Shown here: positions 25,939 through 56,146 of the stretch, piece by piece
Position numbering within the stretch: position 1 is the stretch's first letter
Layout: the number at the start of each line of letters is the position of its first letter
DNA from: Candidatus Omnitrophota bacterium
GTDB lineage: Bacteria > Ratteibacteria > UBA8468 > B48-G9 > DTJG01
Assembly (NCBI GenBank): GCA_023484085.1
Contig: JAMDAS010000025.1
Coordinates: 1-56,146, forward strand
DNA: 56,146 nt
Direction of reading: 5' to 3'
Position numbers and translations under genes: made by a program
The notes under the pieces: model-generated
Told to the model about the DNA's origin: nothing
Seen by the model: the letters and a program-made list of their open reading frames with translations, nothing else
Database searches by the model: none

Positions 25939-27117
25939 ATGAAACATAAAAAGCAGGAAAATTTCATAGCGCCCTATCTTGAAGTAAAAGAGGACTTGCA
26001 AAAGAAAATAAAAAAGGGAAAAGGTGTATATGCAACTGGTGAAAGGATTCCCTCTGAGATGGAGTTATCACGGCACTATCATGTAAGCAGACCAACACTG
26101 AAGAAGGCTCTTTCCCTTCTTGTATCCGAGGGATACATATTCCAGATTCCGGGCCGCGGAACTTTCATTAATTCCCCGGACAATGAAATCTTTCAGCGGC
26201 AGATTGAATCACGCCGCCAGTTCAAACGGATGAACAAGGGGATTGGGGTTTTGGTTCCATGTATTACTGAATCGCTTTATCCCGGAATTCTGCGCGGTAT
26301 AGAGGATTTCTGCAAGAAAAAAGGTTATCACGTAATCCTCGGGAATTCAGATGCAACATCTGAAAAAGAACAGGAGTATATGATAATGTTCACGGAACGC
26401 GGAGTATCAGGTTTAATCATAGCTGTTTCCTATCAGTCCCATTTAAATCCCTATTATGCCACGTTGAAGAAGTGCAGGATTCCCTTTGTTCTTGTAGACG
26501 TTTCAATTGCCGGGATAGAAGCAGACCTTGTTGCGACCGATAATACAATGGGTGCTTATCTTGGAACAAGACGTCTTATAGAAAAGGGCTGTAAAAACAT
26601 TGCATTCATCTGCGGATGGAAGGAAGTATCAAGTTCTGTGGAAAGATTGGAGGGGTACCAGAAAGCCCTTGCAGAAGCCGGTCTTCCATTTCAAAGACAG
26701 ATTGTAAGACATGGTGAGTTTTCCCGGGAATTTGGCTATAATGCAGCCATGGACGTACTCGCTAAAAATTCCATAGACAGTATATTTTCTGCAAACGAGC
26801 CAATTACGCTTGGTGTATTCAGAGCTGTAGGTGAACTTAGTTCTCAAATTTCTCAAAAAATAAACATAGTGTCTTTTGACGAACCAGACGTTCCTCCATG
26901 GTTAAACAATCCTGTTGTTTTAGTTAGTCAGCCGCGATATGAAATAGGGCAAACTGCTGCGCAACTGCTTTTAGAGAGAATTTCAAAAAAGAATGTTTCA
27001 ATCACAAATTCTTACAAAAGAATTCTTCTTAGTCCGCTGCTACATAACGTAAATACAAAGGAACATAAAGTGGTTTTCTCCTCGCCATTCTTGCGGCAAT
27101 GTTACTACCGGCATTAG
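25939..27117 (+). CDS. GntR-type DNA-binding/LacI-type ligand-binding hybrid transcription regulator
   Basis: The N-terminal 75 residues are a GntR winged helix (LKEDLQKKIKKG-like opening, GERIPSEMELSRHYHVSRPTLKKALSLLVSEGYIFQIPGRGTFI). Residues ~95-380 are a LacI/periplasmic-binding-protein-like sensor (IGVLVPCITESLYPGILRGIEDF, DNTMGAYLGTRRLIEKGCKNIAFI, NIVSFDEP). This is the AraR-type architecture for sugar-responsive repressors. The frame is open from 25921, but 25939 fits the promoters better. The last ~15 codons run out of frame through the pseudopilin remnant, so the original C-terminus was probably replaced by the same deletion that damaged that gene. Confidence 0.9.
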   Translation: MKHKKQENFIAPYLEVKEDLQKKIKKGKGVYATGERIPSEMELSRHYHVSRPTLKKALSLLVSEGYIFQIPGRGTFINSPDNEIFQRQIESRRQFKRMNKGIGVLVPCITESLYPGILRGIEDFCKKKGYHVILGNSDATSEKEQEYMIMFTERGVSGLIIAVSYQSHLNPYYATLKKCRIPFVLVDVSIAGIEADLVATDNTMGAYLGTRRLIEKGCKNIAFICGWKEVSSSVERLEGYQKALAEAGLPFQRQIVRHGEFSREFGYNAAMDVLAKNSIDSIFSANEPITLGVFRAVGELSSQISQKINIVSFDEPDVPPWLNNPVVLVSQPRYEIGQTAAQLLLERISKKNVSITNSYKRILLSPLLHNVNTKEHKVVFSSPFLRQCYYRH

Positions 27118-27740
27118 CAGCTGCAAGGGAAAAGGCAAGACAGAGTGTTTGTCTGAATAATCTGCATCAAATTGGACTTGCTTGCTTAATGTATGCCCAG
27201 GATTACCACACTTTTTATGGAGCAGGGGCTTTCCCCTACTATGGGGCTTATGGTACATGGTCTCCTGTTGCAAATCTTAATCTTTTATATGGTCCATATA
27301 TAAAATCATCTGCTACATTTGTATGTCCGGATGCCGTAATAAAAGGTCTTGACCATGTTGCAACAGGAACATCTCTTACTTCTCTTGGGCCCGGGGAGAC
27401 ATGGCAGGAGATTGGTGGTTGGCCTGACTACGGGGAATATCATGTTTCTTATGCATATTATGGTATACAGTATGGTTCTGCTCTCACAGATGCTGCTAAT
27501 CCTGATTCAGTTTTAGCCGCTGATCAGTCAGCAAAGTATATCTATGGGAAAAATAGTCCGTGGTTTTTTTATTTTGTTGATAACAATGGATATTTTAATA
27601 CTTCCGCTGTTCCAAATCATTCTGGAGGAGCTAATGCCTTATATGTTAGTGGTAACGTAAAATGGGTTCCGAATGGTGACCTGAGAAAAGATATTCAGGA
27701 AACGGATGTAAGTGGATATCATACATTATCCAATCCTTAA
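27072..27740 (+). pseudogene. Pseudopilin (DUF1559-like) gene with damaged N-terminus
   Basis: From 27072 the frame reads [24 protein letters not shown], then CLNNLHQIGLACLMYAQDYH and NHSGGANALYVSGNVKWVP. Intact paralogues have [20 protein letters not shown], so TLIE and VVIAII appear to be missing, and a TAA at 27066-27068 closes the frame two codons upstream. No start codon or ribosome site precedes the helix; only the ATG at 27099, inside the former helix, is available. The prepilin-peptidase site is therefore lost. The rest (~213 codons) is intact, and the H-X9-DG tail is present as H-X9-SG. Confidence 0.75.
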
Positions 27741-27758
27741 AAAGGGGGGGTGAAAAAA

Positions 27759-28637
27759 ATGCGAAATGTAATGCAATGGAATGAAGTCCGCCAGTCCGCC
27801 AATCTTTTTGGAGGACGCCAATCCTTATGGCGGAAAGAAGTGAATAGCAACGGAAGAGCCGCCTTTTCCTTAATAGAGCTCCTGGTTGTCATAGCAATCA
27901 TAGCCATTCTTGCGGCTATGTTGCTGCCGGCACTGGAGGCTGCAAGGCAGAAAGCCAGAGCGGATGTCTGCTTGAATAATCTGAAAGAAATAGGTCTTGC
28001 TTTTTCAATGTATCTGAATGACTGGAATGAACAATATCCGCCTCTTGTGGAAGAAAATGCAGGCTTAGGGCCAAGTTATAAAGAAATAGGTTGGATAGAA
28101 CTCCTTCAGCCCTATCTTCATTTTCAGATTCAATATCTTGCACCAGGTGCCAATGGATTTGGGAGTCCAGGGCAACTTGCTGTTTGCCCGCAACTATTCA
28201 TATGTCCTGCAGTAATGGCAAATTATACTACTGATTGGACAGCCTATTTTGATATCGGTTCTATTTATGGATATTCCGATGCAATAAGTTCGGGTATTGG
28301 CTGGCCTTCTTGGCTCCCTATTAAAGAATCAGTTATAAAAAGTCCTTCAAACCAGGTGGTTGTGGCTGAAGATATATATGGCTGGAGATTTTATTACTGG
28401 AACCAATTTATTGCTGGACATGGACTTGGAATAACTGATGCATATAGTTCCCCACAACAACAACAAACCAGTACAGAAGAAGGTAGTGTATTAATGGCTG
28501 ATGGGCATGTAGAATCCCATCCATATAGCTGGGCCATAGCCACAAAGGGGAATTGGAATGGATATAATTTAAATGCAAATCCAGGTGCTGCATATATGGG
28601 TCCCTGGGATACTTTCTATCATATCCCCGGCACTTGA
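27759..28637 (+). CDS. Pseudopilin, DUF1559-like (prepilin-type N-terminal helix)
   Basis: The 292-residue protein has [23 protein letters not shown] with the prepilin-peptidase glutamate. The head domain has [26 protein letters not shown], several cysteines and a tail [18 protein letters not shown] (S-X9-DG in place of H-X9-DG). A ggggggtgaaaaaa ribosome site precedes the ATG at 27759. GTG at 27750 and GTG at 27840 (short leader VNSNGRA) are alternatives. The extended leader (residues 1-27) shares MRNVM...RQSLWRKE with the pseudopilin at 41588. It probably acts in a type II secretion or type IV-pilus-like envelope assembly linked to the secreted enzymes downstream. Confidence 0.88.
27783..27815 (-). 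repeat. Short dispersed repeat, copy in the pseudopilin leader
   Basis: The minus strand of this segment (TCCTCCAAAAAGATTGGCGG, then ACTGGCGGACTT) matches 46393-46427 on the plus strand with few changes, in opposite orientation. Here it lies inside codons of the pseudopilin leader; the other copy is intergenic. Confidence 0.5.
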
Positions 28638-28662
28638 TAAAAAAGAGGGTTCATTAAGATGA

Positions 28663-28691
28663 TTTGTAAATACTCAGTGAATATTTACAAA
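28663..28691. promoter_or_regulatory. Long inverted repeat, probable operator upstream of the 28708 gene
   Basis: TTTGTAAATA (28663-28672) and TATTTACAAA (28682-28691) are perfect 10-bp arms around CTCAGTGAA. The left arm matches the operator at 25881-25890, and the centre plus right arm (CAGTGAATATTTAC) matches the paired motifs upstream of the 17037-19460 glycosidase. It ends 16 bp before the ATG at 28708, overlapping the leader, so it could equally be an mRNA hairpin. Confidence 0.65.
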
Positions 28692-28707
28692 ATAGGAGGA
28701 TAGAAGA

Positions 28708-30081
28708 ATGATGAAAAAAAATTTGAATATTGGTATAATTGTGAGCTTTTTGATTTTTATTACTTCAGGGAACGTCTTCGCCCAATTAAACGGACAGTCA
28801 TCTTTAAATGAAAATACAAATTTTGGGAAAGCATATAATCAGTTTATTTCCGCACCTGTAAAAAGTTATGATTTTTCCCCTTGTATATCTTCATTTAACA
28901 CAATTGCCGCTGAAACCAGCAGCAAAAAAACAAAAACGTCTGCGCGGTTTTTTCTTCTACTCTCCTATTTTTGTTCCACAAATTTTGATAAGGCTTATAA
29001 TGAAATAAAAACCATATATACAAGAAAACTTTATCCGGAAAATAAAACAACCACTGTTTTGCTTCCAAAGGTAATGAACGAATATGAAGTAGGTCATTCG
29101 TCATTTCAGAGATTATTAATAAACAATTCATTGATAAAGGTTATTATGCCCGGAGAAAATGTCAGTGATCTTGTCGGGATTGAAAAAACCATAAAAATTT
29201 TTGATACCCAAAAAGAATTATCCCTTATGCAACCCACTACGGTATATAAAAACGCCCGGGAAAAAATAAATAAATTAGAAAAAGAAACAACAACTGATAA
29301 ACAGAAAAAGATAATGGACATGATGAAAAAAAACGTTGATATGATGAAGATGCCCTCTACAAGAAACTTTTACAAGATGACTGATGTGCTCTCCATTCTT
29401 ATAGAAGATAGCAGTTTTAATGGTATGAGAAACTCTATAACAAAGACAATAGGACTTTCCATATGCGCTCAAAATCTGCGACAAATAGGCATAGCATTTC
29501 ATCTATATCTGCTTGACCATAATGACTATTTTCCACCTCTTACCGTGAAGGACCGGGTACCTAATGGTACGCCAGACCAGGCTGGTAAAGGATGGATCCA
29601 ATTATTAGAGCCATATCTTGGTCTGAAAAACGTCATAGTAAAAGCAGGTGGCTGGGATAATGGATATATCCCCTTAGTTCCATCCTTATTTGACTGTCCG
29701 ACAAGACAACATTCCTGGACAATGTATGCAACCGGTGAGTATGGATATAATGATTATGTAAGCAGAGGCGGTCCTACGCCTGGATGGCCATTTTACAAGT
29801 GGTGTAAATTTTCATATGTTCCAAAACCTGATATTCAGGTGGTTGTTGCGGAGTCGTTATATGGCTCTCGTTTGTATGGTAATCATCAATTTGTAGCTCC
29901 GCATGGTCATATTCAAGTTGATGGGAATAGTTCTGTGGATTTGCAAAAAACCAGTACTTCTTTAGGAAACGTTTTATATGCAGATGGACATGTGGAAGCA
30001 CATCCGTTTAGTTGGGCAATAAGTTGGCCATATGGATATTTAAAAGGTGGAAACGACCCCTGGGATACGATGACTAAATAA
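28708..30081 (+). CDS. Sec-exported protein with a pseudopilin-type head domain but no prepilin helix
   Basis: Residues 1-25 form a Sec signal peptide (ending NVFA|Q). Residues ~30-250 are an unrecognised, mostly helical, Lys-rich region. Residues ~255-457 are clearly homologous to the head of the pseudopilin at 27759: CAQNLRQIGIAFHLYLLDHNDYFPPL, VVVAESLYG, GNVLYADGHVEAHPFSWAI and a closing PWDTM. The prepilin motif and hydrophobic helix are absent, replaced by the signal peptide and new domain. This is either a gene fusion or a head domain recycled as a periplasmic or extracellular module. A strong aggagga ribosome site precedes the start. Confidence 0.85.
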   Translation: MMKKNLNIGIIVSFLIFITSGNVFAQLNGQSSLNENTNFGKAYNQFISAPVKSYDFSPCISSFNTIAAETSSKKTKTSARFFLLLSYFCSTNFDKAYNEIKTIYTRKLYPENKTTTVLLPKVMNEYEVGHSSFQRLLINNSLIKVIMPGENVSDLVGIEKTIKIFDTQKELSLMQPTTVYKNAREKINKLEKETTTDKQKKIMDMMKKNVDMMKMPSTRNFYKMTDVLSILIEDSSFNGMRNSITKTIGLSICAQNLRQIGIAFHLYLLDHNDYFPPLTVKDRVPNGTPDQAGKGWIQLLEPYLGLKNVIVKAGGWDNGYIPLVPSLFDCPTRQHSWTMYATGEYGYNDYVSRGGPTPGWPFYKWCKFSYVPKPDIQVVVAESLYGSRLYGNHQFVAPHGHIQVDGNSSVDLQKTSTSLGNVLYADGHVEAHPFSWAISWPYGYLKGGNDPWDTMTK

Positions 30082-30148
30082 TTTTTTTTAAAGAATGTTA
30101 TAACCATTAACAAAATGAATAAACAGAAAATAATAGGGGGAAATATTT

Positions 30149-33100
30149 ATGAAAAAAGAAATTAGAAAAATTTTGGGCTCTATTATGTTTACCGCATCAT
30201 TTACACTGATTTTTTGTTTTTCAGCAAAAGCAGAACATACGCTTCCACAATTATATTATAAATTATCTACAAGTATTGTAACACCTCATATTTCATGGGC
30301 AAATCCTTATTATAAGGGACCATTGCATATACTTGTTATAGCCCCGAGATGGCGGCAGAGAGATACAGTAGAGCTGATGGAACGCCTGGATGCGAAGGTT
30401 ACACCGGTTTTTTGTTTTAATGACAGCAGTCTTTATTTAAATGGATGGGATTGGGGTTTTGAGAAAGCAAAGGGAATCCAGAAACAGGCAGTTGAAAAAT
30501 CCCTGGATGATGCTTTAATAAGAAATTATGACGTAATTATCCTTGCCTATGCACCTATACAAACCTTTCCCAAATCTGCAGTTGAAAGCATTTTAAGAAA
30601 AGTTGAAGCAGGTACAGGACTTGTATACATTTATCCAGGGAACACAATTCCCAATAACCCTTTTGTTAAAGAACTGACACTAACGTCATTATCAGGAGTA
30701 GAGCAATCTGCAGTATCAGGAATTCCTGTTGAATGTTTACAGCTCAGGAATTATACAGGTCCTCCTAAAAGTGAAAAAGAATTGAAAAATTTTCTTTCTT
30801 TTTATAGATATGGAAATGGAAAAGTGGCTATGGTTAATTTAAACAGTACAGGTTTTCTTGCTTATCCTGCAGGTAATGATTTGGACTTTGAAACGTATAC
30901 TGCATACATGATAAACGTAATACTTGGGGTAAGCAAAAAACAAAGTCAGATACAATATACTACTTATCAACCATTTTTAAGTTCAGATGCAGGCAAGCCG
31001 TTCAATTATAAATTATCCCTGGATAATACGGGAAATTCCTTGAGAGCAAATATTACAATATCTGTCCATCCATTTAAGCAATTGTTTGTTCCCAAAGAAC
31101 CGGAAGTAAACCAGGGAATAAATAATGCGTCAGGATATATTGCTTCATACTGGAAAGAAAAGAAAAATATATCTTTACCTGCAGGACAATCTAACGTTTC
31201 TTTTGCAATTCCAGGACTTGCTGCCGGAAATTATTATATTTTTGTACAGGTTTTATCTGGAGGAAAAAAGGTATCATTTTGTATTCAAAAACTTACAGTT
31301 AAATCCGGGATTAAAATAGAAAAAGTTCAGATAACACCTTCAGCCATGGATTTAAATAATTCAAACAGGAATATTAAGGTTGAATTAGATTTAAGTGCTC
31401 CTGCACCATCAAATTCATCTTTATCCGCTGTTTTACTTGATAATTATGACAGGATTCTTGATGCCAAAACTTTTGAAATAAAACAAAATAGTAATAACGA
31501 ACAATTCAATCTTTCAGTTAACCATATTTTTTCAACCCTTGGAAAAGTTAGGGTAATACTTTCTATAAACAAAAAAATAATGTCTGTAAAAACCGGCTAT
31601 TTTACGGTTTATCACAGAAAATGGCCCAATTTTACGTTTTTTGCCTGGGGAGGAGAAACAGGTTCTTATGATTATGATATGATGAGAAAAATTGAAGTTT
31701 CAATGGGAGTAGATGCTTTTAGAGGTGGGGACTCCATAGAAACGCTTAGGATTGCAGATGATAGATGTATTCCTGATATGTATAGACTTCTTGCAGGCGT
31801 AAAAAATGGGAAAGTAGAACCTTCTTATGTTAACCCTGATAATCGCATTGAAAGGGCAAAACAAATTTTTTCTGCTGTTAAAGATACCATGCCATTTGAC
31901 CCGTATGCCTATCTTCAGGGTGATGAGTTTGGTTTTATTAATGGTGGTTTACCTGGTGCATCCAAAGGGAAAAACTCTATAGAAGATTTCAGGAGATACT
32001 TAAAAGCTAAATATAAAACTATTGATAATCTTAATAAACAGTGGGGATTTAATTATGATTCTTTTTATCAGATAGAGCCGGTTACAACAGGAAGTAAGGT
32101 TGATGCCGCCAGGAAAGCCCTTGATTTTTCATATCTTATTGACCAGTGGACGTATAACTGGTATGTCTTTGGAGATTCCGTCAGGTTTTATCATGATGCA
32201 TTAAAGGATATAGACCCTACGGCAAAACTTGGATTATCCACACCTCTATGGAATTATTATTACCGTGCCTATGACTGGCCTGTTCTTATGAAATATATTG
32301 AATTTTTTACACCATATAATGATTTTGGCGGTGATGCCCATTATGACATTGCCCGGTGTTTTGCAAAACCAGGTACAGTATTAAGTCAGCACTATGGTTC
32401 TTACTCTAATGTTTTAAACAATCTTCCTTACTACAAGGTAATGCCCTATGCATTGCTACTTGATGGCTGCCAAAATCTTTTCTGGTATAACTTGGGTTTT
32501 GGTGATGAATCAGGAATTTCACCTTCAATGACCCCATACCCGGGTTTTGAAACGACTTCCCTTGAAGTAAAAAAAATTAAAAGCGGGATTGGAAATCTAT
32601 TTGTTCATTCCAGCAGGATAAAAGGCAGGATTGGCATAGAATACAATGAACCTTCTTTCCTTTTTTCTTTTCTTGTTTCTTCTCCAAACGTTCCATGGAC
32701 GTATAATGAATTGAGGACTTGTCTTTCAAACCTTGGTTATGACTATCAATTTATCTCAGACAGTCAGATTTTAAAAGGAGGGCTTTCATCTTATAAGATT
32801 CTTTTTTTACCTGTTTCTCAATGTATCAGTTCAAGACTGTCAAAAAAATTAAAAGAATTTGTTGAAGGTGGAGGTCTTCTTATTGCAGTCGTAAAACCTG
32901 GTCTTTTTGACGGACATGGAAAATATTATGGAAAATCAAGTCCGAGCAGCAGAATTTTTGGGCTTGAGTGGAAAAATCCTTTACAACAACTTGGGCTTGG
33001 ATGGAAAAAGCCTTTACAACAATCCTCACCTGGAAAAATTCATCAGATAACGGGCAAATATAAAAATGAAAAATTTCAATGGACGTTTAAGTCGGATGAA

Positions 33101-33862: not shown

Positions 33863-33907
33863 AACTGAAAAAAAGAAATCTTAACAAAATAAACATAGGG
33901 GGGAATT

Positions 33908-38167: not shown

Positions 38168-38281
38168 TCTAAGAAAGCATGAGACAATATGTCAAGGTAG
38201 GTGCAAGTGTTCCTGTAGGGGTGGAGGGGGTAAGATTACTTATAAAATTGAAACAATGTATTACATACGAGGAGGAATTAA

Positions 38282-39292: not shown

Positions 39293-39316
39293 AGGAGGTT
39301 CTCTTGCATTTTACTA

Positions 39317-39480: not shown

Positions 39481-39505
39481 ATGGAATTTGAACTTTATAA
39501 ATTTA

Positions 39506-39514: not shown

Positions 39515-39557
39515 AATTGTAATCTATTAGCCCAACTTCCACATTTTTGAGAAGGAA

Positions 39558-40412: not shown

Positions 40413-40441
40413 TTGACATATCAATATATCATATTTATAAT
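40413..40441 (+). promoter_or_regulatory. Consensus sigma70 promoter of the second hybrid regulator
   Basis: TTGACA (40413-40418), a 17-bp spacer and TATAAT (40436-40441) match the consensus perfectly, 48 bp upstream of the ATG at 40490. The spacer is AT-rich with repeated ATAT/ATCA words, but no clear palindrome stands out. Confidence 0.9.
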
Positions 40442-41569: not shown

Positions 41570-41587
41570 GAGAGGAGGTGAAAACAG

Positions 41588-42514: not shown

Positions 42515-42582
42515 AGAAATTTTTAATTAATAGTTGATTTGTATAATATATATTTTATTTATCCATTATTTGGAGGAGAATT

Positions 42583-42795
42583 ATGCCTGAAAAAAAAAGT
42601 AATCCGGTGGCAATAGTGATTTTAATTATTATTATAGTGGCGGCTATTTTCTTTATTATTAAACAAACAACAAAAAAGCCGGCAGGAGCAATGCCAGCTC
42701 CGACAAAATTATTACCACAACCGCCTTTACCCAAATTGAAATCATCATCGTATTATATGAAAAAGTATCAACAAGAAAAAACAGTGAAGAAGTGA
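42583..42795 (+). CDS. Small single-span membrane protein downstream of the pseudopilin
   Basis: This 70-residue protein has a short charged start (MPEKKSNP), one membrane helix (VAIVILIIIIVAAIFFII, residues 8-25), then a Lys/Pro-rich tail (KKPAGAMPAPTKLLPQPPLP). Tggaggagaatt gives a strong ribosome site, which supports it as a real gene. Topology is probably N-in, with the proline-rich tail in the periplasm. The function is not known. The position between the pseudopilin and the giant secreted proteins suggests an accessory envelope role. Confidence 0.8.
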   Translation: MPEKKSNPVAIVILIIIIVAAIFFIIKQTTKKPAGAMPAPTKLLPQPPLPKLKSSSYYMKKYQQEKTVKK

Positions 42796-42927
42796 AGAGA
42801 TAAAGGTAACTTATTTATATCTATTATGGAAATATTTTAATGTGTGTATGTAGATATGAATCTTGCGTGGATATATTATAGAAAGTATTTATAAGTATAT
42901 TTTTGAACGAAAAAATGGGAGGATAAG

Positions 42928-46350: not shown

Positions 46351-46369
46351 CAAACAATATGTTTTACTC

Positions 46370-46386
46370 TTAAATACTCAGCTAAC
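46370..46386 (-). promoter_or_regulatory. Weak copy of the operator-like motif upstream of the 46449 gene
   Basis: On the minus strand this reads GTTAGCTGAGTATTTAA, differing at four positions from GTTCACTGAATATTTAC found upstream of the 17037-19460 glycosidase. It lies 63-79 bp before the next gene. Confidence 0.35.
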
Positions 46387-46392
46387 GGTGTT

Positions 46393-46444
46393 TCCTCCAA
46401 AAATATTGGCGGACTACCGGACTGAAGGTACAAAATTTGGAGGA
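46393..46444 (+). promoter_or_regulatory. Hairpin that pairs with the ribosome site of the 46449 gene; contains a dispersed repeat
   Basis: TCCTCCAAA (46393-46401) is the exact complement of TTTGGAGGA (46436-46444), the Shine-Dalgarno of the next gene, so the mRNA could hide its own ribosome site. The left arm and loop (46393-46427) match the minus strand of 27783-27815. Confidence 0.5.
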
Positions 46445-46448
46445 TAAA

Positions 46449-49400
46449 ATGAAGAGAATTTTAGCAATAGGGATTTTGTTGTGTTTATTTTCTATAGGTT
46501 ATGTATTTGGCAGTAATATAAGCAGTCAGAAAAAGCCATCAATATTATTTTGTGCTCCACAGGCAGGGTATGGCTGGGTGGATTTAGGATACTTAAGACA
46601 ACTTACACAGAAAGGATTTGAGGTGGATTATACCACGGACCTGTCTCAGGTTACATGGAACAGAATCAAACACTACAACGTTCTGGTAATTTATGTAACG
46701 CCTGATGCATTTGCAATATCTGACCAGGGGCAAAGGTCATTCCCGGAAGAAAAGGAAAAATCTTTTGTCAATCTAATAAAGAAATATCTTTCTCATGGTG
46801 GTGGTGTATTTCTTTTTCCAAGTGAAACAAATATTACATGGGGACAACATACAAAACAACAGGTATCAGACCTGACAAATTTTTTGGGAGCAAAAGTACC
46901 GGTAGACCTGATTGTAGAAAAAAACCCTGCTGATGTTTCTGCGATAAGTCACATGTCATACGGTGTTTCTGTGGCTTGGACAGATAACGTTTTTCCAACA
47001 TCTGTCAGCCAGGGGGTAAAAGGTATCTGGTACCCGACTCAACCGGCGTATTTTGCGCAGATGACATCTCCATTATGGGTCAACAAAGACTGGCAGGTAG
47101 TTATAAGGGCGTCAAAGACAGCCTATCTTCAGCCGGTAAATTTTAATAATGCCACTGATGTCATTAAGCATCCGTTTATTCTGCCGGCAGAGACGCCGGA
47201 ACCCGTATTATTTGCAATCCGCTCATATAAAACCGGCAGGATTGCATTTATGGACCAGTGGAGACAATTTTCTATCGGCGCAGGGACAAAATGGCTATAC
47301 AACAATGAGGTTTTAAGCAAAGGATTTAAAGGCAGACCCAGTGATTTTGGCAGGCTATTGGATAATACGTTCAAATGGTTGGCAGAGCCATCTCTAAAAA
47401 ATCATACTCTTGGTGGATATACGACTTTAATGGATAAACTGATACCCCCCAATTATCTTTCCGGCGTAAAAAAGCAATATAATGGATTTAACAGCCATTT
47501 TGTCAAAAACTGGGTATCCCGGCCAAATTTTTTAAATTATGGAAGAAGTTCAGTTCCTCCTCATCTATATCGTGGTTTGATTGGAGTAAAAACCACTTTC
47601 AGTACAGGAAAAAACACTGTCCGGCAGTATGCACAGGAAGCGCAAAAATTAGGATTGAATTTTCTTGTATTCATGGATAATTTTTCTCAACTGACACCGG
47701 TAAAGTTTAAGCAACTAAAAGAGGAATGTAAAAAATATTCAAACGATAAACTTAAGTTATTTGCAGGATTTAGTATAAAAAACAACATAGGAAACCACAT
47801 GCTGTTTTTTGGACCTCATCCTGCATGGCCCCCGGATAATGTTTTAACCGGACACCATAAAGACATTATTTATATTCAGCAGGAGAATAAAAAAGGGCAG
47901 TATACTTACCCGGGAGTTACTCCTTTCATTGACTGGGTATTGAATAATTATTCCCAGTATAATCAGGTGGCATATTATGATTTTTCCGGGAGTAAAGAAG
48001 GTATGAAGATGCATGACCTGAGGCTATATGGAATGGCAGGATTGATGTATTATAAAAATGGCAGACTTGTAGAAAACGATACAAAAGATTATCTTACCAC
48101 TGTACAGGGTGCCATGCCGTCTGTCCCTGCCAGTATAGATGAGGTTGATTCAGTCAGACAGTTATCCAATGCCGTAAAAGAAAACCATTACCTTACCTAT
48201 GTTAATGCTGATTCTCTGGATAACATGTTCATGAGTGGGTTACGCTGGAACAATCAATATGATGGATTTGATGATTTCATATCAAACGGTCCCAAAATTC
48301 TTGCATGGCCGGCATGTTGGAGAGTAATTACTTATGGCGGGGAACAATTTATTACTGCACCCAATGTTATGCCTTCCCATATCCTTGTTACCTCAAAAAT
48401 CGGGTTAAAGGAGATTGACATATACAATGGTCAGCATCTTTTCCGCAGGATTTTTCTTCATGGGGAAAAAGAGTTTAACAAGGATTTGATTTTAAATGCA
48501 ACAATCCAGAAAAATTTAGTGCTTATTGCAAAGGACATTGCAGGACACAAAGCAATAAGTTTTCCCAGAATATCCCGGTTTGAAGGAGACTTGGCACCGG
48601 TCTTTTGTTCTGACCATGAAAATTCTTATGCAGGTGCATTACTGTTTTCCCATGGACCGGCATGGTTTCCATTAGTCCGTATACCACCTCTTCCAAACGC
48701 AGGAGATACCTGGGATGGAGGACCGCTTGCTGTATCTCCATTAACAGGGAATCAGAGTACAGTTCCTGTTCTTGACAGCAGTATGGGAAAAGAGGATGGT
48801 GGAAGATTTAACCAGATTCCTTTGCTGAATTTTTCAGATGAAGGAGCTGTTGGTATGGAAGGAGTTCATAAAGATGTGTTTGATAATAGACTTCTTGCTG
48901 TAGCGAATACATGGAATACATGTGGGCCTATTGCAGGGCCATCAAAACTTTTTAAATACAGCCAGTATTACAGGGAATGGTTCAGACCTACGGTTGATGT
49001 CCCACATACTGGTTGGGCAGGTCCACAGGTAGGAGCAGGAACAACTGTGTCATTATTCAGAGAGGTTATCACATTCAGAAAAAATTTAAAAGTCAAATCT
49101 TTATTGCTCGGTTACAACACGGGAAACCAAACCAATCATGGTTTTCTTGTTATTGGAACGAACAAAGGAATGGAACAGGTTGATTTATCCAAACCGGGAA
49201 ATTATAAAACTTTTCATCTGAAAAAAGGTGATTGGTTTGGGTATTACAACAAACAAAAACAGCCTGCCAATAGTGCTTTATTTATTAACCGTGGTGGACC
49301 AATATATTTACAAAATAATGCACCATACGTTTTTATCTATGCAGATATAAATAATAAACAGGTGAAGAAAGGGGATATTTTTATTTATGAACTCAGCACC

Positions 49401-49988
49401 CTGGGATTTCCAGTGAACGTTGAAATACATAAAGTATCCCAACTTCTACGGTATATAAATGAGTTAAAGACACCTGGTGGATTATTGGTGGCACGGGGGA
49501 CAAAAGTCCAAAGTTCGGGTATTGAGGAATTTATTCCTGAAAACCATGCAGTGGAACTGTACATCCAGAAGCCGTTTACATCCCTGCCTTTGACGCTCCC
49601 TGTAAGAATTCAGGGTCTTAATCCACGGTGGTCAGCAGGATTGTTCCTGATAAAAGGGTATGGAGATTTTGGCACAGGAGAGAATCTATATCGTCCATTG
49701 GCAGTGAGCCGAACCGGGCATGCGTATATTCCAATGTATGTGGACTGGTCTACGGCAACATGGCTTGTTGCCGGCCAGCCGATAGTTGCGGGTAAACATG
49801 GAAAAAAACTTTTTATCCAGGTTACACGTCTCCAGGCTCACCCGGGAAAATGGTATGTTGCCGTTAATAACCCTACAAATAAAACAATTACCACTATTTT
49901 ACACCCGACAATGGATTTACCCGGCCTTGTATTTCATACTCAATTTATTACCTTGAAACCCGGGGAATATAGAGTGCTTCAACATTAA
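46449..49988 (+). CDS. Secreted giant protein with amidotransferase-like and PHP-like segments (paralogue 2)
   Basis: The 1,179-residue paralogue of the gene at 42928 has almost the same signal peptide (MKRILAIGILLCLFSIGYVFG), a ThuA-like domain (~30-310), a PHP-like segment (~375-460: LYRGLIGVKTTFSTG, FLVFMDNFSQLTPVKFKQLK, LFAGFSIKNNIGNHMLFFG) and a long beta-rich C-terminal half ending NNPTNKTI, as in its paralogue. The frame opens at a TTG (46437), but ATG 46449 after ttggaggataaa is the start by comparison with the paralogue. The metal-binding FTDH of true PHP enzymes is FMDNF here. Strong similarity at the signal peptide and divergence elsewhere suggest an old tandem duplication. Confidence 0.75.
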   Translation: MKRILAIGILLCLFSIGYVFGSNISSQKKPSILFCAPQAGYGWVDLGYLRQLTQKGFEVDYTTDLSQVTWNRIKHYNVLVIYVTPDAFAISDQGQRSFPEEKEKSFVNLIKKYLSHGGGVFLFPSETNITWGQHTKQQVSDLTNFLGAKVPVDLIVEKNPADVSAISHMSYGVSVAWTDNVFPTSVSQGVKGIWYPTQPAYFAQMTSPLWVNKDWQVVIRASKTAYLQPVNFNNATDVIKHPFILPAETPEPVLFAIRSYKTGRIAFMDQWRQFSIGAGTKWLYNNEVLSKGFKGRPSDFGRLLDNTFKWLAEPSLKNHTLGGYTTLMDKLIPPNYLSGVKKQYNGFNSHFVKNWVSRPNFLNYGRSSVPPHLYRGLIGVKTTFSTGKNTVRQYAQEAQKLGLNFLVFMDNFSQLTPVKFKQLKEECKKYSNDKLKLFAGFSIKNNIGNHMLFFGPHPAWPPDNVLTGHHKDIIYIQQENKKGQYTYPGVTPFIDWVLNNYSQYNQVAYYDFSGSKEGMKMHDLRLYGMAGLMYYKNGRLVENDTKDYLTTVQGAMPSVPASIDEVDSVRQLSNAVKENHYLTYVNADSLDNMFMSGLRWNNQYDGFDDFISNGPKILAWPACWRVITYGGEQFITAPNVMPSHILVTSKIGLKEIDIYNGQHLFRRIFLHGEKEFNKDLILNATIQKNLVLIAKDIAGHKAISFPRISRFEGDLAPVFCSDHENSYAGALLFSHGPAWFPLVRIPPLPNAGDTWDGGPLAVSPLTGNQSTVPVLDSSMGKEDGGRFNQIPLLNFSDEGAVGMEGVHKDVFDNRLLAVANTWNTCGPIAGPSKLFKYSQYYREWFRPTVDVPHTGWAGPQVGAGTTVSLFREVITFRKNLKVKSLLLGYNTGNQTNHGFLVIGTNKGMEQVDLSKPGNYKTFHLKKGDWFGYYNKQKQPANSALFINRGGPIYLQNNAPYVFIYADINNKQVKKGDIFIYELSTLGFPVNVEIHKVSQLLRYINELKTPGGLLVARGTKVQSSGIEEFIPENHAVELYIQKPFTSLPLTLPVRIQGLNPRWSAGLFLIKGYGDFGTGENLYRPLAVSRTGHAYIPMYVDWSTATWLVAGQPIVAGKHGKKLFIQVTRLQAHPGKWYVAVNNPTNKTITTILHPTMDLPGLVFHTQFITLKPGEYRVLQH

Positions 49989-50001
49989 TAAAAGGAGGAA
50001 T

Positions 50002-51576
50002 ATGGATTTCAATAAAAAAATTATTTTTTTATTGTTGATATTTTTATCCTGTAGTTTTTCATTATTTGCAGCATCAGTAAAAATAATCACTGGCAGAAAT
50101 GGTGAAAAACTGATAATCATGCAAAATAATCTTCTCAGATTGCAGATTGACCCAAATCATGGTGCGCGTGTGGAAGGTTTTCAATATAAACCATGGGGAA
50201 AAATTAATATTATCCAGGATAAAAACGGACAGGGTCTTCTTGCAGACCATTTCTGGCAGGAAAGCTGGCCAGGTCAGTTCTGGAATGCAAAATATAATTA
50301 TAAAATTCTCTCCAGAGGGCCTGCAGAAGTATCAGTTGGATTTAGTTGCCTTTCTCAAAATAACGGTATTCCCCAGGTTGCAGGTATTTTATTGGAGAAA
50401 ACAATAACCCTAAAAGAAAATGACAGGGTAATCATGGTGACAATCAGTTTAACCAATAAGACGTCTACCGGGAAATATGTAGGTTATTGGCTGCAGAACG
50501 TATGCTGGCTTGGTGGTGAAAAACCCGATAACTATTATTTCAGACCGGGTAAAACCGGGATTAACATAACATCTTCCAATGAAGCAAATCCTCCTGACGG
50601 CGGATTTTTACGGCATCCACAGGCCGGGTGGCTCGCAGGGATTGATAAAAAAACTAAAACAGGGCTGATTTTTTTTATGAATTATAATGAACTGTGGTTT
50701 CTGTATAATTGTACGGCCGCCTCTACAATAGAATGGCAGTATCAGGCAGTCGTAATCTCACCAGGCAGAACATGGCGGACGCATATAACCATTGTTCCTG
50801 TATCTGAAGTAAAATCATTAAGCGGAAATTCCATAAAAAAAGTTGTTCAATCCTTATCCGTTTATTCCATCAAAAGCCAGAAAAAGTTCACATTAGTTCT
50901 CAGGCCTGAAAAAATTATACGTATCATAAAACCCCAGCCGCACGTTCTTTTTCTTAAGGGGCTTTTTTCTCCCCAGTATCATATTGGAGAGGTATTAAAA
51001 CAGGTCTCCTCTTCTGTTAAAATAAAGGAAGGATACGTTTATGATTCAGTTTTTGGTTCCCATCTGGATTATTTCCCGTATAATTATGATGAGCTGATGA
51101 GTTATAATCTTGTAATAATAGGAGACGTAAGTGCAGAGTCTCTTGGAAATGCCGGTATGGAAATGTTAAAAGACTATTGTAAGTATGGAGGCAACATCCT
51201 GGTTCTTGGAGGACCTTGTGCGTATGGTGATGGCGGATACCAGAACACTATTCTGAACAGGATATTGCCTGTAATCAGTCAACGCCCTTTTGATTTACGG
51301 CGCAGCAAAAAGCATGAAAAAATTATCCTGTCTCCCAAAATCAGGGACATGTTTTCCAATAAAATCCCTGAACCGCAATATATCCATGATGTAACAGTCA
51401 AACCTGGTGCTGAAGTGCTGATGAGATATGGTTCATTACCCGTAATTGTATCAGGGCATTATGGAGAAGGTAGGATATTCTGCATTACTGCACCACCAAT
51501 GGGAAGACACAATATCTATAAAAATGCACAATGGCATAAAATATTAGTATATTTACTTAAACAGGCAGGTATATAA
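50002..51576 (+). CDS. Secreted protein: mutarotase-like beta-sandwich plus amidotransferase-like domain
   Basis: Signal peptide 1-23 (SLFA|AS) is followed by a ~260-residue beta-sandwich resembling galactose-mutarotase-like sugar-binding folds (MQNNLLRLQIDPNHGARVEGFQYK, GILLEKTITLKENDRVIMV, TGLIFFMNYNELWFLYN). The C-terminal ~210 residues are a class I amidotransferase-like alpha/beta domain (YNLVIIGDVSAESLGNAGMEMLKDYCKYGGNILVLGGPCAYG) closely resembling the stand-alone protein at 55182. No catalytic triad is evident. aaaaggagga precedes the start, 13 bases after the previous gene, so it is in the same operon. A role in binding or modifying carbohydrate outside the cytoplasm is inferred. Confidence 0.75.
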   Translation: MDFNKKIIFLLLIFLSCSFSLFAASVKIITGRNGEKLIIMQNNLLRLQIDPNHGARVEGFQYKPWGKINIIQDKNGQGLLADHFWQESWPGQFWNAKYNYKILSRGPAEVSVGFSCLSQNNGIPQVAGILLEKTITLKENDRVIMVTISLTNKTSTGKYVGYWLQNVCWLGGEKPDNYYFRPGKTGINITSSNEANPPDGGFLRHPQAGWLAGIDKKTKTGLIFFMNYNELWFLYNCTAASTIEWQYQAVVISPGRTWRTHITIVPVSEVKSLSGNSIKKVVQSLSVYSIKSQKKFTLVLRPEKIIRIIKPQPHVLFLKGLFSPQYHIGEVLKQVSSSVKIKEGYVYDSVFGSHLDYFPYNYDELMSYNLVIIGDVSAESLGNAGMEMLKDYCKYGGNILVLGGPCAYGDGGYQNTILNRILPVISQRPFDLRRSKKHEKIILSPKIRDMFSNKIPEPQYIHDVTVKPGAEVLMRYGSLPVIVSGHYGEGRIFCITAPPMGRHNIYKNAQWHKILVYLLKQAGI

Positions 51577-51608
51577 TAACAAATTTTTCTAAAGAACAGG
51601 AGGAGATT

Positions 51609-53819
51609 ATGAATATACATAAATTTAAAAGGCTATATTTAGGACTGATTTTGTTTGCATCATTTGTAACATTATGTTCAGCACAACAAAAAGAAATATC
51701 TTCACAACCAGGGCAGACGTCCATTTCAAAGGCAAACCTGGCTGCTGGCGCGTACAACATAATCTTCAGATTGAAGATAAACAAAGAACAACAGAGTGTT
51801 ACTCCCTTGGCAACCCTGACTGTCAGTTCACCTGAATATCCAAACATTCTCTATAAATCAATAACTCCTATCAGATTTGTATCTGTCAACACAACGACAA
51901 AATTTCAATTCTTGTTTGATAATTTCAAAACCCAGGATATTACGGCGTCTGTAAATTTTATGAACAACAAAGTTCCTGTCCCTGAATTAAGTGTGGAAAA
52001 AATCACCATTGCACCTGTGGATAATCTTTGTGTAGCAACGGTCTGGCCCGGAAAGATTCTTTATTATAGACATGAAAATGCCAGTGGATTTGTGATTGTG
52101 TATAATGGCACCCGCCAGTATAAAACAATTATTCTGAAGTGTTTTCTTGAAAGCGGTATTGATAATGTAAAACCTTTGAAAACACAAAAACTCACCTTAG
52201 AGCCCAGAGAACGTATGCAGGTTCCTGTGAAATGGAACACAGGAAACAAGGAATATGGATTTGCTCTTGTGGGCAGTATTTATAATTTGAAAGGGAAAAA
52301 ACTCAGTGAAAACAAACAATATTTCAGTGTGGCAGATAATCTATGGAAGGTGGGTATGTATCTGCGCGGGCGGGGGACAGAAGTGCCATTTGGAGTTGGA
52401 GCCAATCAATCCATGCCTGTCAAATGGGTAAAAGAGCAGGAAAAAGCCCTTTCCAGTGAGCTGGCAAAACCGTTTGCGCCTGTGTATTGGAACTATGGCA
52501 ACTATGTTGAATTCTATGCATGGTCCCCGGACGATTTCTTCAACCTGTCTCCTGATACCGATTACTGGTACAGCGGAACAGGGAATTACACCATCGGGAA
52601 AAAATGGCTTCAGCTCAGCATAAAATGGCTGCACCGCAGGGGAATGCGGGCAATTTCGTACCTTAATCCATTTTCCTGTGGTTATGGCGGGAACAAGGTT
52701 TTACAAAAACATCCTGATTGGTTTGTCTATGATAAAAATGGACAGGTGACAACAGGCGGTAGTTATTATGAAAAAAAACTTGAAGTTGGGGAAGAAAACG
52801 GACCAAAGCAGCCATGGTATTTACAGCTTTCCCCTTATGCTTTGACGCTTTCTCCGGACATATCAACCATGGCGCCGATAAAGGCGCAGGTGGAACAGAT
52901 TATAAAATCACAGAAAATGTTTGGCTGGGATGGGGTTAGATTTGATAATGAGGTTTACGGTTCTTCCGGATACGATTTTTATGGCCACAAAATAGCAGAA
53001 AACCCGAAACAGGCAAGTCAGATGGAAATAAAAGCATGGGAATACATGAAAAACTCTTTATGGAAAAAGCTTGGCCATAAGTTTGTTATCGGTGATAATT
53101 TTGACTATTATGCCCGGCATCAACAACCACCCGGTGTATGGGAGGAAACCTGTAAAGATGGGCAATTACTTATGTGTGAAATGCCCCGTGGGTCTTATGA
53201 CCCACAAAGTCCCTGGAATAAATGGTCTGATTTTCTGAGTTATTTCAATAATGTGGGCAATATAGTGGATAGATTAGGCGGGTATCCTTTAATAATCGGG
53301 TTTGACAACCAGTACCCTGTAGACCATCTTTATCTGAATATTTTTACTTACGCAGCAAGATTACATCCTTATTGCTACCAGTATCATCCTGATGACCTGC
53401 CTTTTGGAAACTATGCCCAATTTGTGACCCGCTATAGTGCCTTAATCTGGGATATACATAGAATTAAACCTTTATCTACGGATAAAATTATTGAAGTAAA
53501 AAGTAATAAGCCAATCTGGTGGAAGGGCCTTGCATACGTGAGATTATCAAGTAATGGTAAGTCCCGGTATATCATCAATCTTATCAATCCGCCTGTCCGG
53601 AAAAAAATTTATACGGACCCTACGAATAGTGTTCCTTTTCCAATAGATAATATTCAGGTTATCTTAAAAGAAAAACCAGGGGAAAAGATTTCCAATGCTT
53701 ATCTGTTATCAGCAGAACCTGTTACACACATGAAAAAATTACCTGTTACTTCTGGAAATGGTTATGTTTCAGTAACAATACCAAAGATTTATTTCTGGAG
53801 TATGGTAGTATTTGAATAG
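51609..53819 (+). CDS. Secreted TIM-barrel glycoside hydrolase-like protein
   Basis: The 736-residue protein has signal peptide 1-25 (CSA|QQ), beta-sandwich domains to ~250, a TIM-barrel region (~300-640) and a C-terminal beta domain. RRGMRAISYLNPFSCGYGG, DWFVYDKNGQV, GWDGVRFDNEVYG and HKFVIGDNFDYY look like successive barrel strands of alpha-glycosidase-like enzymes; the Asp in GVRFDNE is the best candidate nucleophile. The family cannot be assigned by eye (GH13/GH36/GH66-like patterns considered). acaggagga precedes the start. It is co-oriented and closely spaced in locus B. Confidence 0.72.
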   Translation: MNIHKFKRLYLGLILFASFVTLCSAQQKEISSQPGQTSISKANLAAGAYNIIFRLKINKEQQSVTPLATLTVSSPEYPNILYKSITPIRFVSVNTTTKFQFLFDNFKTQDITASVNFMNNKVPVPELSVEKITIAPVDNLCVATVWPGKILYYRHENASGFVIVYNGTRQYKTIILKCFLESGIDNVKPLKTQKLTLEPRERMQVPVKWNTGNKEYGFALVGSIYNLKGKKLSENKQYFSVADNLWKVGMYLRGRGTEVPFGVGANQSMPVKWVKEQEKALSSELAKPFAPVYWNYGNYVEFYAWSPDDFFNLSPDTDYWYSGTGNYTIGKKWLQLSIKWLHRRGMRAISYLNPFSCGYGGNKVLQKHPDWFVYDKNGQVTTGGSYYEKKLEVGEENGPKQPWYLQLSPYALTLSPDISTMAPIKAQVEQIIKSQKMFGWDGVRFDNEVYGSSGYDFYGHKIAENPKQASQMEIKAWEYMKNSLWKKLGHKFVIGDNFDYYARHQQPPGVWEETCKDGQLLMCEMPRGSYDPQSPWNKWSDFLSYFNNVGNIVDRLGGYPLIIGFDNQYPVDHLYLNIFTYAARLHPYCYQYHPDDLPFGNYAQFVTRYSALIWDIHRIKPLSTDKIIEVKSNKPIWWKGLAYVRLSSNGKSRYIINLINPPVRKKIYTDPTNSVPFPIDNIQVILKEKPGEKISNAYLLSAEPVTHMKKLPVTSGNGYVSVTIPKIYFWSMVVFE

Positions 53820-53833
53820 GAGGAAATAATATT

Positions 53834-54922
53834 ATGAGAAAGTTTAAATTATTAGTTTTTATAGCAGGAGTATTATTTATATCTTTTTCTTTTGTTCATG
53901 CAGATGTTCTCACACAAAATCTGCTGCAAAATGGTGATTTTGGAAAAGCAGGTATTCCATTACCAGGGTGGAGTATAAATCTTTCACCTGGAGAAAGTTA
54001 TAAACTGACATCTGATGTTGTGATAGGAAAAAAAGCCCTTGAAATAGATTTACCTGTTGCCGGAAATGCAGATGTGATTTCTGCACCATCTCCTGTATCT
54101 GGTGGTGCTTCTTATCTTCTAATATTCTGGTATCATGCAAATGGCATGAGCACTAAAGGATGGACTTACCAGGGATGTAATTCATATTGTTCTATTATAT
54201 GGCAGGATGCAGGTGGAAAAGAAATAAAGAATACAAATGCCGTGGTCGGGTTACCATACGGGTCTGTAAAATATTATCAGCCTGCTACATTTACAACTAC
54301 TGCTCCAGAAAGGGCTGTGAAAGTTATTGTATCATTTAATATTGGGGTTGGGAAAGAGTATAAAGGACCCCCAACGTCCATCTTTATAGACGATATTCGT
54401 TTGATGAAATTAACAAAAGTCTCCATACCTGTAAAACCTGAAAAATGGGTATATTTACATCGCAATCTTAGTGCAGGATTAAAAATGGTAGAGGATAAGA
54501 ATGCAGAACATGGTCAGGCAATTATGGCTGCTCCTGGTGTAACTCCAAAATATACAGGATTGACATGGGGACAATACACAAAGGACCAGCCTGTGGGTGA
54601 ATATTTGGCCGTTTTCCGTCTGAAAGTAAAAAACAATACAAAGAAAGAACCTGTTGCCCAACTGGACGTTAATGATTTTGGAAATCTTAATGGTGAGATT
54701 GCAGAAAAAACGCTGTTTGCCACAGATTTTAAACATCCAGGGGTTTACCAGGATTTTACTCTCAGATTTGTGCGACCGGAAGCAGGAGTGCTGGAATTCA
54801 GGGTAATGTATCTTGGTACAACATCTCTTTCATTTGATAAAACCACAGTTATACAGCTGAAATCTTTAAAAACGGATAAGGAACAATTTGCTATCTGGTT
54901 CGGAAAAGGTTCTGTCAAATAA
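53834..54922 (+). CDS. Secreted carbohydrate-binding-like protein (CBM/jelly-roll)
   Basis: The 362-residue protein has signal peptide 1-23 (FVHA|D) and then LLQNGDFGKAGIPLPGWS, the usual opening of CBM4/CBM22-type jelly-rolls (NGDFE....GW). A strand-rich body (SGGASYLLIFWYHANG, FIDDIRLMKL) follows. A second domain (~215-360: KPEKWVYLHRNLSAGLKM, GEYLAVFRLKVKNNTKKEPVAQLDV) resembles the N-terminal domain of the glycosidase immediately upstream. No catalytic residues are seen. It starts 14 bases after the glycosidase with aggaggaaat. It probably binds the polysaccharide substrate of the locus. Confidence 0.78.
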   Translation: MRKFKLLVFIAGVLFISFSFVHADVLTQNLLQNGDFGKAGIPLPGWSINLSPGESYKLTSDVVIGKKALEIDLPVAGNADVISAPSPVSGGASYLLIFWYHANGMSTKGWTYQGCNSYCSIIWQDAGGKEIKNTNAVVGLPYGSVKYYQPATFTTTAPERAVKVIVSFNIGVGKEYKGPPTSIFIDDIRLMKLTKVSIPVKPEKWVYLHRNLSAGLKMVEDKNAEHGQAIMAAPGVTPKYTGLTWGQYTKDQPVGEYLAVFRLKVKNNTKKEPVAQLDVNDFGNLNGEIAEKTLFATDFKHPGVYQDFTLRFVRPEAGVLEFRVMYLGTTSLSFDKTTVIQLKSLKTDKEQFAIWFGKGSVK

Positions 54923-54923
54923 G

Positions 54924-55147
54924 AAATGAAATAAATATACCTGATAGCGAATTGCACAGTCACAGGAACAAAACAAGAAGAAAAGCGTCAGCGTTCGTGC
55001 AATCAGACTTTAGTCTCTTTGCAAAAACATGTTTGAACTCGCTGGCCGCAGTAGTATGCGGACAGGAGTGAGTTGTTTTTGGCACGATTTCTTTGTAGTT
55101 TTATCTGTGACAGAGCACCTGAGCGGACAGGTATATTTATTTCATTT
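54924..55147. repeat. 224-bp imperfect palindrome between the CBM-like and amidotransferase-like genes
   Basis: The outer arms are a perfect 20 bp (AAATGAAATAAATATACCTG at 54924-54943 with its complement at 55128-55147). Moving inward, GTCACAG/CTGTGAC (54959-54965 with 55105-55111), CGTGC/GCACG, GCAAAAAC/GTTTTTGGC and AACTCGCT/AGTGAGTT also pair, down to the CCGCA/TGCGG tip. No gene lies inside. It may be a non-autonomous mobile element (MITE) or a structured RNA. Confidence 0.75.
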
Positions 55148-55181
55148 TTGACAGAACCTCGGAAAAATTTAGGAGGGTAAA

Positions 55182-55937
55182 ATGAAAAATAAAACGTTGA
55201 TCCACTTTATATTGGTCAAAGCACTGATTTTTGGGTTTCTATTTACCACCTGTGTTTCAAGTTATGCTCATGCCCGGGATACAATTCTTGTCCTTGCAGG
55301 ATTGGGTAATAAAACCTATCTGCCCGTCAAACTTCTACATGAGACATTTACTTTTAAATATTCGTATTTGGCAAGTCTTCAGACAGGATTTGTTCTTGAT
55401 AAGCCTTTTCCCCAGAACTTTAAAAAGTTGAAAGGCATTAAAATCATTATTATGGCAGACGTTCCTGCCAGCGCCTTGAATGGTTTGTTGGGAAGAATGG
55501 CATTATGGGAGTTTGTAAAACATGGTGGTGGACTCTTATATTTTGGAGGTCCCTTTGCTTTTGGTAAAGGAGATATCAGGGATTCTTTATTAGAATCTGT
55601 CCTTCCTGTAACAACGACTGGCCCATGGGATATGATAAAATCTCCGGGACATGTTAAAACAACGGGCTATTCCTCAATAACTGCAGAATTGGATTGGAGT
55701 AAAAACCCATATATATTTTATGAACAGAAAGTTAAACCGAAATCCGGTTCAAATACACTTTTACGATGCAATGGAACACCGGTTTTGATAACGGGCAGAT
55801 ATGGAAAAGGAAAGGTGGCAGTATTTACCGGCACGTATTTTGGAAATCTTCAAAAAAATAAAAATCATGTGTTTTTCTATAAATGGCAGGACTATCCCGA
55901 ATTACTTACCAGGATACTCAACTGGCTGCGGAACTGA
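55182..55937 (+). CDS. Secreted amidotransferase-like (ThuA/GATase-type) domain protein
   Basis: The 251-residue protein has a signal peptide of ~31 residues (SSYAHA|RD) followed by a single class I amidotransferase-like domain: TILVLAGLGNKTYLPVKLLHETF, IKIIIMADVPASALNGLLGRMALWEFVKHGGGLLYFGGPFAFG, PVLITGRYGKGKVAVFTGTYFG. The same domain forms the C-terminal half of the protein at 50002, and relatives of it start the giant proteins of both loci. No nucleophile cysteine is seen at the elbow, so it is probably a binding or structural module. aggagggtaaa is the ribosome site. It is separated from the rest of locus B by the 224-bp palindrome. Confidence 0.75.
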   Translation: MKNKTLIHFILVKALIFGFLFTTCVSSYAHARDTILVLAGLGNKTYLPVKLLHETFTFKYSYLASLQTGFVLDKPFPQNFKKLKGIKIIIMADVPASALNGLLGRMALWEFVKHGGGLLYFGGPFAFGKGDIRDSLLESVLPVTTTGPWDMIKSPGHVKTTGYSSITAELDWSKNPYIFYEQKVKPKSGSNTLLRCNGTPVLITGRYGKGKVAVFTGTYFGNLQKNKNHVFFYKWQDYPELLTRILNWLRN

Positions 55938-56063
55938 ATCTATTTTCTCTAAGCCTTCACATTTCTTGTGTTAAAAAAAGTATCCATTAAGCCTGCCCCA
56001 TTGTCTTAATTTCTATCCCGCAAAATACTTATATCAGAATTTCAGGTGACACAACGCGTTGAC

Positions 56064-56092
56064 TTGACAGGGAAAAAATTATCATTTATAAT
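56064..56092 (+). promoter_or_regulatory. Consensus sigma70 promoter near the right edge
   Basis: TTGACA (56064-56069), 17 bp and TATAAT (56087-56092) match the consensus perfectly. The same perfect arrangement precedes the regulator at 40490. Confidence 0.9.
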
Positions 56093-56100
56093 TTTATAAT

Positions 56101-56117
56101 ATGTAAATTTTTTACAT
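56101..56117. promoter_or_regulatory. Operator-like inverted repeat downstream of the right-edge promoter
   Basis: ATGTAAATTTTTTACAT has 7-bp perfect arms around TTT and sits at the expected transcription start, where a repressor would block initiation. Its TGTAAA/TTTACA core resembles the inverted repeat at 28663-28691. Confidence 0.6.
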
Positions 56118-56129
56118 TGGGATGTATTT

Positions 56130-56146
56130 ATGAAAATTGACTGTTT
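56130..56146 (+). CDS. Start of a gene cut by the window edge
   Basis: ATGAAAATTGACTG opens a frame after ttgggatgtattt, 38 bp downstream of a perfect promoter. Only five codons are visible (MKIDC), so no family can be named. By analogy with 40490 it could be a third locus regulator. Confidence 0.4.

Follow-up and report, generated by a model that had tools for sequence, protein, structure and literature searches.

The window analysed here is the whole of contig JAMDAS010000025.1 (56,146 nucleotides) from a Candidatus Omnitrophota bacterium (assembly GCA_023484085.1). It carries two loci, at 25939–39292 and 40490–55937, and in each of them the gene of a hybrid regulator is followed by a pseudopilin gene of the DUF1559 family and then by genes for giant Sec-exported proteins. 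This plan had been described in an earlier note on the same DNA and is confirmed by Pfam matches and signal peptides. All genes of the two loci, and the perfect promoters at 40413 and 56064, lie on the forward strand. For comparison, the neighbourhoods of DUF1559 genes were taken from the window's genome (G000, an assembly of 906 kb that is 63% complete and contains 12 DUF1559 matches), and three relatives: G001 from the same genus, G002 from the same family and G014 from the same order. DUF1559 genes are present in 31/31 genomes of the class that were searched, with 8–47 copies per genome in G001–G009 and G014.

In the first locus, the regulator (25939–27117) combines a GntR helix-turn-helix domain with a LacI-type sugar-sensor domain (Pfam GntR, 9.6e-16; Peripla_BP_1, 1.2e-22), and TTGACA-17-TATTTT is found just 5′ of it, at 25902–25930. 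The intact pseudopilin of this locus (27750–28637) contains N_methyl and DUF1559 domains, the latter scoring 34.4 bits with PF07596 against a curated cut-off of 23.3. Both this protein and the pseudopilin of the second locus, at 41588, pass the cut-offs of PF07963 and TIGR02532, which the reading frames at 27099 and 28708 do not. Two corrections to the first reading concern these last two frames. The frame at 27099–27740 is a broken pseudopilin: it has a DUF1559 body, begins within the pilin helix and lacks the FTLIELLV cleavage/methylation site. Around its start (27060–27130), the 3′ end of the regulator runs out of frame into a pilin deprived of the start of its mature helix, a fusion that could be either a deletion or an assembly join at the repeated pilin N-terminus. 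The protein encoded at 28708–30081 was rejected as a pilin, having a Sec signal and no pilin helix. Behind an N-terminal domain of unknown kind, its C-terminal half is a copy of the 27750 head (43% identical over 199 aa). Such a helix-free head, carried by a Sec-exported protein, suggests that the head may have a role apart from polymerisation or filament assembly.

Two giant exported proteins with GH42-like domains come next, of 1237 aa (30149–33862) and 1419 aa (33908–38167). The second is a paralogue of the first and begins with a sandwich domain of the GH2/rhamnosidase type. When ten GH42-like giants were aligned, the sole invariant Glu was found in a GDE motif; the hydrolase activity of the two window proteins is not certain because no second invariant catalytic Glu was seen. 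The alignment was too divergent to serve as a scan query, and a scan of GTDB contigs with the giant at 33908 returned no relatives. The locus ends with a cytoplasmic oxidoreductase of the Gfo/Idh/MocA family (38282–39292; Pfam).

The second locus is preceded by a perfect sigma-70-like promoter (TTGACA-17-TATAAT, 40413–40441) that is partly kept in the orthologous locus G001 C44. Its regulator (40490–41569) associates a GntR helix-turn-helix with Peripla_BP_3 (1.1e-15 and 2e-24, respectively, in Pfam). The pseudopilin (41588–42514) contains N_methyl, DUF1559 and H-X9-DG (TIGR04294) domains and scores 51.4 bits with PF07596. Its true start is likely 41687, after a second Shine-Dalgarno sequence. 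A pair of in-frame starts, both provided with a Shine-Dalgarno sequence (NNTEKEEKNM on read-through), is found in many pilin genes, as at 41588–41690 in the window and at L082, L086–L088, L092, L098, L100 and L107 in G001; automated annotation can therefore be expected to overstate leader length.

Behind this pilin, a small membrane protein of 70 aa (42583–42795), with one transmembrane segment and a Pro-rich tail, had been missed in the first reading; it is 76% identical to an open reading frame located behind the pilin of G001 C38. The two giants of this locus, of 1140 aa (42928–46350) and 1183 aa (46437–49988), are exported paralogues with no Pfam match. A PDB profile search with their family yielded no more than a weak match of the N-terminal part to 2gk3 (E 0.011), and a structure model of the 1140-aa protein, built from a two-sequence alignment, was unusable (mean pLDDT 30.8). 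Four further exported proteins complete the locus: one with a GATase1_like domain (50002–51576), one with a GH66-like C-terminal part (51609–53819) for which a PDB search gave no match, one without Pfam match that resembles CBM4/9 by eye (53834–54922) and a second GATase1_like protein (55182–55937). The signal-peptide proteins behind the window pilins thus range from 251 to 1419 aa. The earlier note had credited them with glycosidase, amidotransferase-like and carbohydrate-binding domains. The first two were recovered as the GH42-like, GH66-like and GATase1_like domains, whereas no carbohydrate-binding family passed the Pfam cut-off in the window. The promoter that had been reported at 56064 is indeed a perfect TTGACA-17-TATAAT (56064–56092); it is sigma-70-like and possibly starts a further locus, the contig ending 54 bases past it.

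The order of genes seen in the window recurs in the four genomes far beyond chance. Because the neighbour tests were restricted to pilin-centred regions, the regulator test was rerun genome-wide using positions from profile searches. Of 46 Peripla_BP_3 regulators, 29 are followed within 1 kb, on their own strand, by a DUF1559 pilin, where 0.47 would be expected from gene density. The downstream side was readable for 116 pilin genes: in 55% of them, the first non-pilin gene on the 3′ side codes for a protein with a signal peptide and a length of 500 aa or more, whereas the share is 9% after other genes of the same regions (64 observed, compared with 15.6±3.2 for random placement within regions). 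On the upstream side, such proteins were found in 14% of cases against 8% in the background. The enrichment being thus mainly on the downstream side, we conclude that the pilin opens the unit. Upstream, the genes are of another kind. Pfam matches of 75 genes preceding pilins included 28 Peripla_BP_3, 21 GntR and 7 LacI, whereas the matches listed for 74 background genes comprised one GntR and no sensor family. Co-occurrence within 10 kb of a regulator, a DUF1559 pilin and a signal-peptide protein of 1000 aa or more, the test called for in the earlier note, was observed 15 times, against a mean of 1.7 and a maximum of 6 in 500 shuffles. The regulator-pilin-giant arrangement is therefore real, and we regard its presence across the order as firmly established. 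Two other candidate signs were discarded. Short intergenic gaps cannot serve as an operon mark, since gaps are short throughout these genomes, and an apparent pilin-giant fusion at G014 C3 (L156) proved to be a long frame made of a run of N.

The proteins encoded behind pilins carry CBM9, DUF4838, LamG, GH123, GH42M and beta-helix domains (Pfam). A lipobox was present in 2/72 signal-peptide cargos, so the cargos should mostly be soluble exoproteins. SusD (PF07980) was detected in a Bacteroides control and in none of the four genomes. It is thus well supported, as a prediction from the genes, that these loci are sugar-regulated glycan-utilisation units that are not of the Sus type. The corresponding proposals, namely polysaccharide-utilisation units different from the polysaccharide-utilisation loci (PULs) of Bacteroidota, are consistent with the sensor regulators that precede pilins and with the CBM9, GH123 and GH42M cargos, and with the result for SusD.

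The nature of the DUF1559 proteins themselves has to be considered, since PF07596 is named SBP_bac_10 in Pfam and such proteins have been termed solute-binding in the older planctomycete literature (PMC2754498, PMC4807772). We consider it very improbable that they are solute-binding proteins. They possess a prepilin cleavage/methylation motif, their N-terminal helix matches those of solved type IV pilins and of GspG, a pilin helix is present in the predicted model, and no transporter gene was seen with Pfam in either window locus. The two window pilins score 31.2 and 38.5 bits with TIGR01710 (GspG), under its whole-protein cut-off of 88.85, and this sub-threshold similarity lies in the first 60 residues.

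A machine that could assemble such pilins is encoded elsewhere in the genomes. Assembly ATPases of the GspE/PilB type (PF00437) and secretins (PF00263) were detected in 4/4 genomes, with 1–3 secretins each, and these genes of the type II secretion system (T2SS) or type IV pilus (T4P) are located away from the pilin loci. In G002, GspF and GspG-, GspH- and GspK-like genes form a single cluster; in G014, a GspG-like gene beside GspF is flanked by DUF1559 pilins. A prepilin peptidase was detected in G001 and G014.

The conserved gene order, its enrichment over shuffles, the types of protein involved and the separate assembly machine suggest that every glycan programme comes with a pseudopilin of its own, which would assist the export or presentation of the enzymes made with it. 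A regulator of the GntR/LacI or LacI type would sense a breakdown sugar and control the operon, presumably by induction. The first structural gene of the operon would encode the DUF1559 pseudopilin and the following ones, probably co-transcribed with it, the large Sec-exported proteins acting on glycans. A shared prepilin peptidase would process the pseudopilin, which could then join a shared machine of the T2SS/T4P type. By contacting its cargo there, it might help to move the co-made enzymes across the outer membrane or hold them at the cell surface; either of the roles proposed in the earlier note, a cargo-specific secretion tip or a surface display element, would be compatible with the present data. 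That the pseudopilin serves a machine which exports or presents the cargo is in our opinion the best explanation of the data, although we would put its chances slightly below even. A more specific version, in which dozens of locus-specific, sugar-induced pseudopilins plug into the 1–3 shared T2SS/T4P machines, each fitting the machine to the giants of its own operon, has in our view chances well below even.

Alternatively, the co-induced pilin could be incorporated into an extracellular type IV filament and bind the target glycan through its variable head, so that the cell would adhere to the polymer, the enzymes being secreted by other means. Such a role in surface display or adhesion would fit the length (~200 aa) and high variability of the heads, which contrast with a nearly invariant N-terminus, the presence of shorter PilT-like ATPases alongside GspE/PilB and the occurrence of the head as a soluble exported domain. 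It is less easily reconciled with G014, where DUF1559 pilins adjoin GspF and a GspG-like gene, and the head gave no match to a lectin-like or any other known fold. We regard this alternative as unlikely.

Comparisons between genomes show pilin and cargo to be inherited together in part. For pairs of loci whose cargos are alike (score of 100 bits or more), pilin similarity was 0.265, a value reached in 0/300 shuffles (null 0.160±0.017). In G002 C7 and G014 C11, pilins (67%) and cargos (72%) are both well conserved, whereas the regulators are 28% identical and belong to different helix-turn-helix classes. The second window locus corresponds to G001 C44, with 77% identity for the regulator, 51% for the pilin and 76% for the N-terminal part of the giant at 46437. 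The giant at 42928, in turn, matches at 62% the cargo of G001 C10, where the regulator is largely unrelated. The locus slot thus appears to be conserved, with regulator, pilin and cargo partly exchangeable, and the co-inheritance of pilin with cargo, judged from these comparisons, is incomplete though significant. The dedicated pseudopilin postulated in the earlier note can accordingly be upheld only in part: pilin similarity tracks that of the cargo above the null, but pilins, cargos and regulators have also been exchanged.

Several results weigh against a pseudopilin devoted to the export or presentation of its neighbours. The pilin-cargo correlation may be due to plain vertical inheritance of operons. 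In G000 C15 and G001 C10 the cargos are 78% identical but the pilins 35%; conversely, in G000 C17 and G001 C76 a tandem pair of pilins has been kept in order (59% and 72%) in front of cargos that are 25% identical. A single window pilin precedes two giants whose counterparts are split between separate pilin-led loci in G001. No prepilin peptidase was found in G002 or in the 63% complete G000 assembly. The head part of the predicted pilin model is weak, and in a fold search only the N-terminal helix matched pilins (best E 0.37), the head having no match in the PDB. Finally, genes and signal peptides were called by simple home-made rules and checked by eye only. Some of these results would be expected if the association reflected co-regulation only, the pilins being interchangeable major or minor subunits, none of them cargo-specific, produced in larger quantity as the demand for export grows. 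Exchange of modules between loci, the presence of several cargos behind one window pilin and the different rates at which pilin and cargo diverge all point in this direction. Yet pilin similarity still follows cargo similarity over shuffles, and the order of the tandem pilin pair is conserved between G000 and G001; we consider co-regulation only as rather unlikely.

An unrelated peculiarity of the pilin genes is a palindrome, TCCGCCAATCYTTWWGGHGGA, present at ~25 places in G000. Its copies in coding sequences are essentially restricted to prepilin leader peptides, in the part predicted to be removed by prepilin peptidase. The remaining copies are intergenic, many of them within an element of 91–181 bp whose inverted ends are GTAAATACTCA/TGAATATTTAC; 8-bp target duplications were observed at two copies of this element. 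In the window, the palindrome occurs at 27796 and 27815 (both in the 27750 leader), at 41623 (41588 leader) and at 46393 (−, between two giants); elsewhere it is found at L042, L044 (doubled), L050, L051, L053 (off the main frame), L054 and L056–L061. Compared with the window's leader, that of the G001 C44 orthologue is short of a 31-nt stretch comprising most of the palindrome. The odd N-termini of these pilins are thus explained by the entry of a mobile palindrome into prepilin leaders; a leader that is cleaved off may be a place where its insertion is tolerated. Rickettsia palindromic elements are also found in frame in genes; the likeness to the G000 palindrome is in behaviour only.

Nucleotidyltransferase genes (AbiEii/DUF6036-like, some recognised by eye only) lie beside several G000 pilin loci, at 23104–23691 and 39558–40130 in the window (the latter encoding a cytoplasmic protein), at 13318–13695 in L046 and at 10723–12037 in L053. 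At 535–9416, the window also contains a GmrSD-like gene surrounded by those of type I restriction subunits and, behind them, a transposase pair of the IS21 type (7138–9416).

Scanning of named genomes yielded 80 contigs; on high-GC contigs, a same-strand rule was used to remove false opposite-strand reading frames. In small samples, a large signal-peptide protein was found behind 9/26 pilins on contigs labelled Lentisphaerota (one of them, L164, being probably a spurious reading frame) and behind 4/41 pilins on those labelled Verrucomicrobia. A regulator-like gene, a pilin and an exported protein follow each other in L178, L189, L200 and L219 (regulator by eye), and L214 contains a regulator and a pilin at a contig end. 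L219 belongs to Victivallis vadensis DSM 14823, which provides a cultured strain with similar loci. A literature search, from which subscription papers and preprints were excluded, retrieved no paper that links DUF1559 pilins to glycan loci or describes this arrangement. These loci bear on the purpose of the large DUF1559 pseudopilin expansions in PVC-type bacteria, and on the means by which bacteria lacking SusC/SusD export very large enzymes that act on glycans and organise them. Should pseudopilins indeed be fitted to their cargos, the specificity of a T2SS could be set by exchange of its pseudopilin. Genes located directly behind DUF1559 pilins in these lineages, including those of domain-less giants, are candidates for exported glycan-acting proteins.

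The loci resemble the Sus-type PULs of Bacteroidota in that a sugar-responsive regulator adjoins a run of exported glycan-acting proteins. They differ in their regulators, which are of the GntR/LacI or LacI type, in their cargos, mostly devoid of a lipobox, and in their constant element, a pseudopilin taking the place of SusC/D in genomes where SusD was not detected. DUF1559 pilins share a prepilin-type N-terminus with the pseudopilins of T2SS (GspG, GspH–K), and T2SS/T4P genes are present in the same genomes; in contrast to those pseudopilins, they are numerous in each genome, mostly located outside the machine cluster and in front of cargo genes, and their head is bigger than that of GspG. 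They belong to the same family as the DUF1559/H-X9-DG pseudopilins of Planctomycetota, Verrucomicrobiota and Lentisphaerota (N_methyl and PF07596, with TIGR04294 in 41588). Elsewhere, however, these have been regarded as an expanded family whose function is either unknown or solute binding, whereas the regulator-pilin-giant order described here is common in the lineage of the window, is seen in some Lentisphaerota and is uncommon in the Verrucomicrobia loci sampled.

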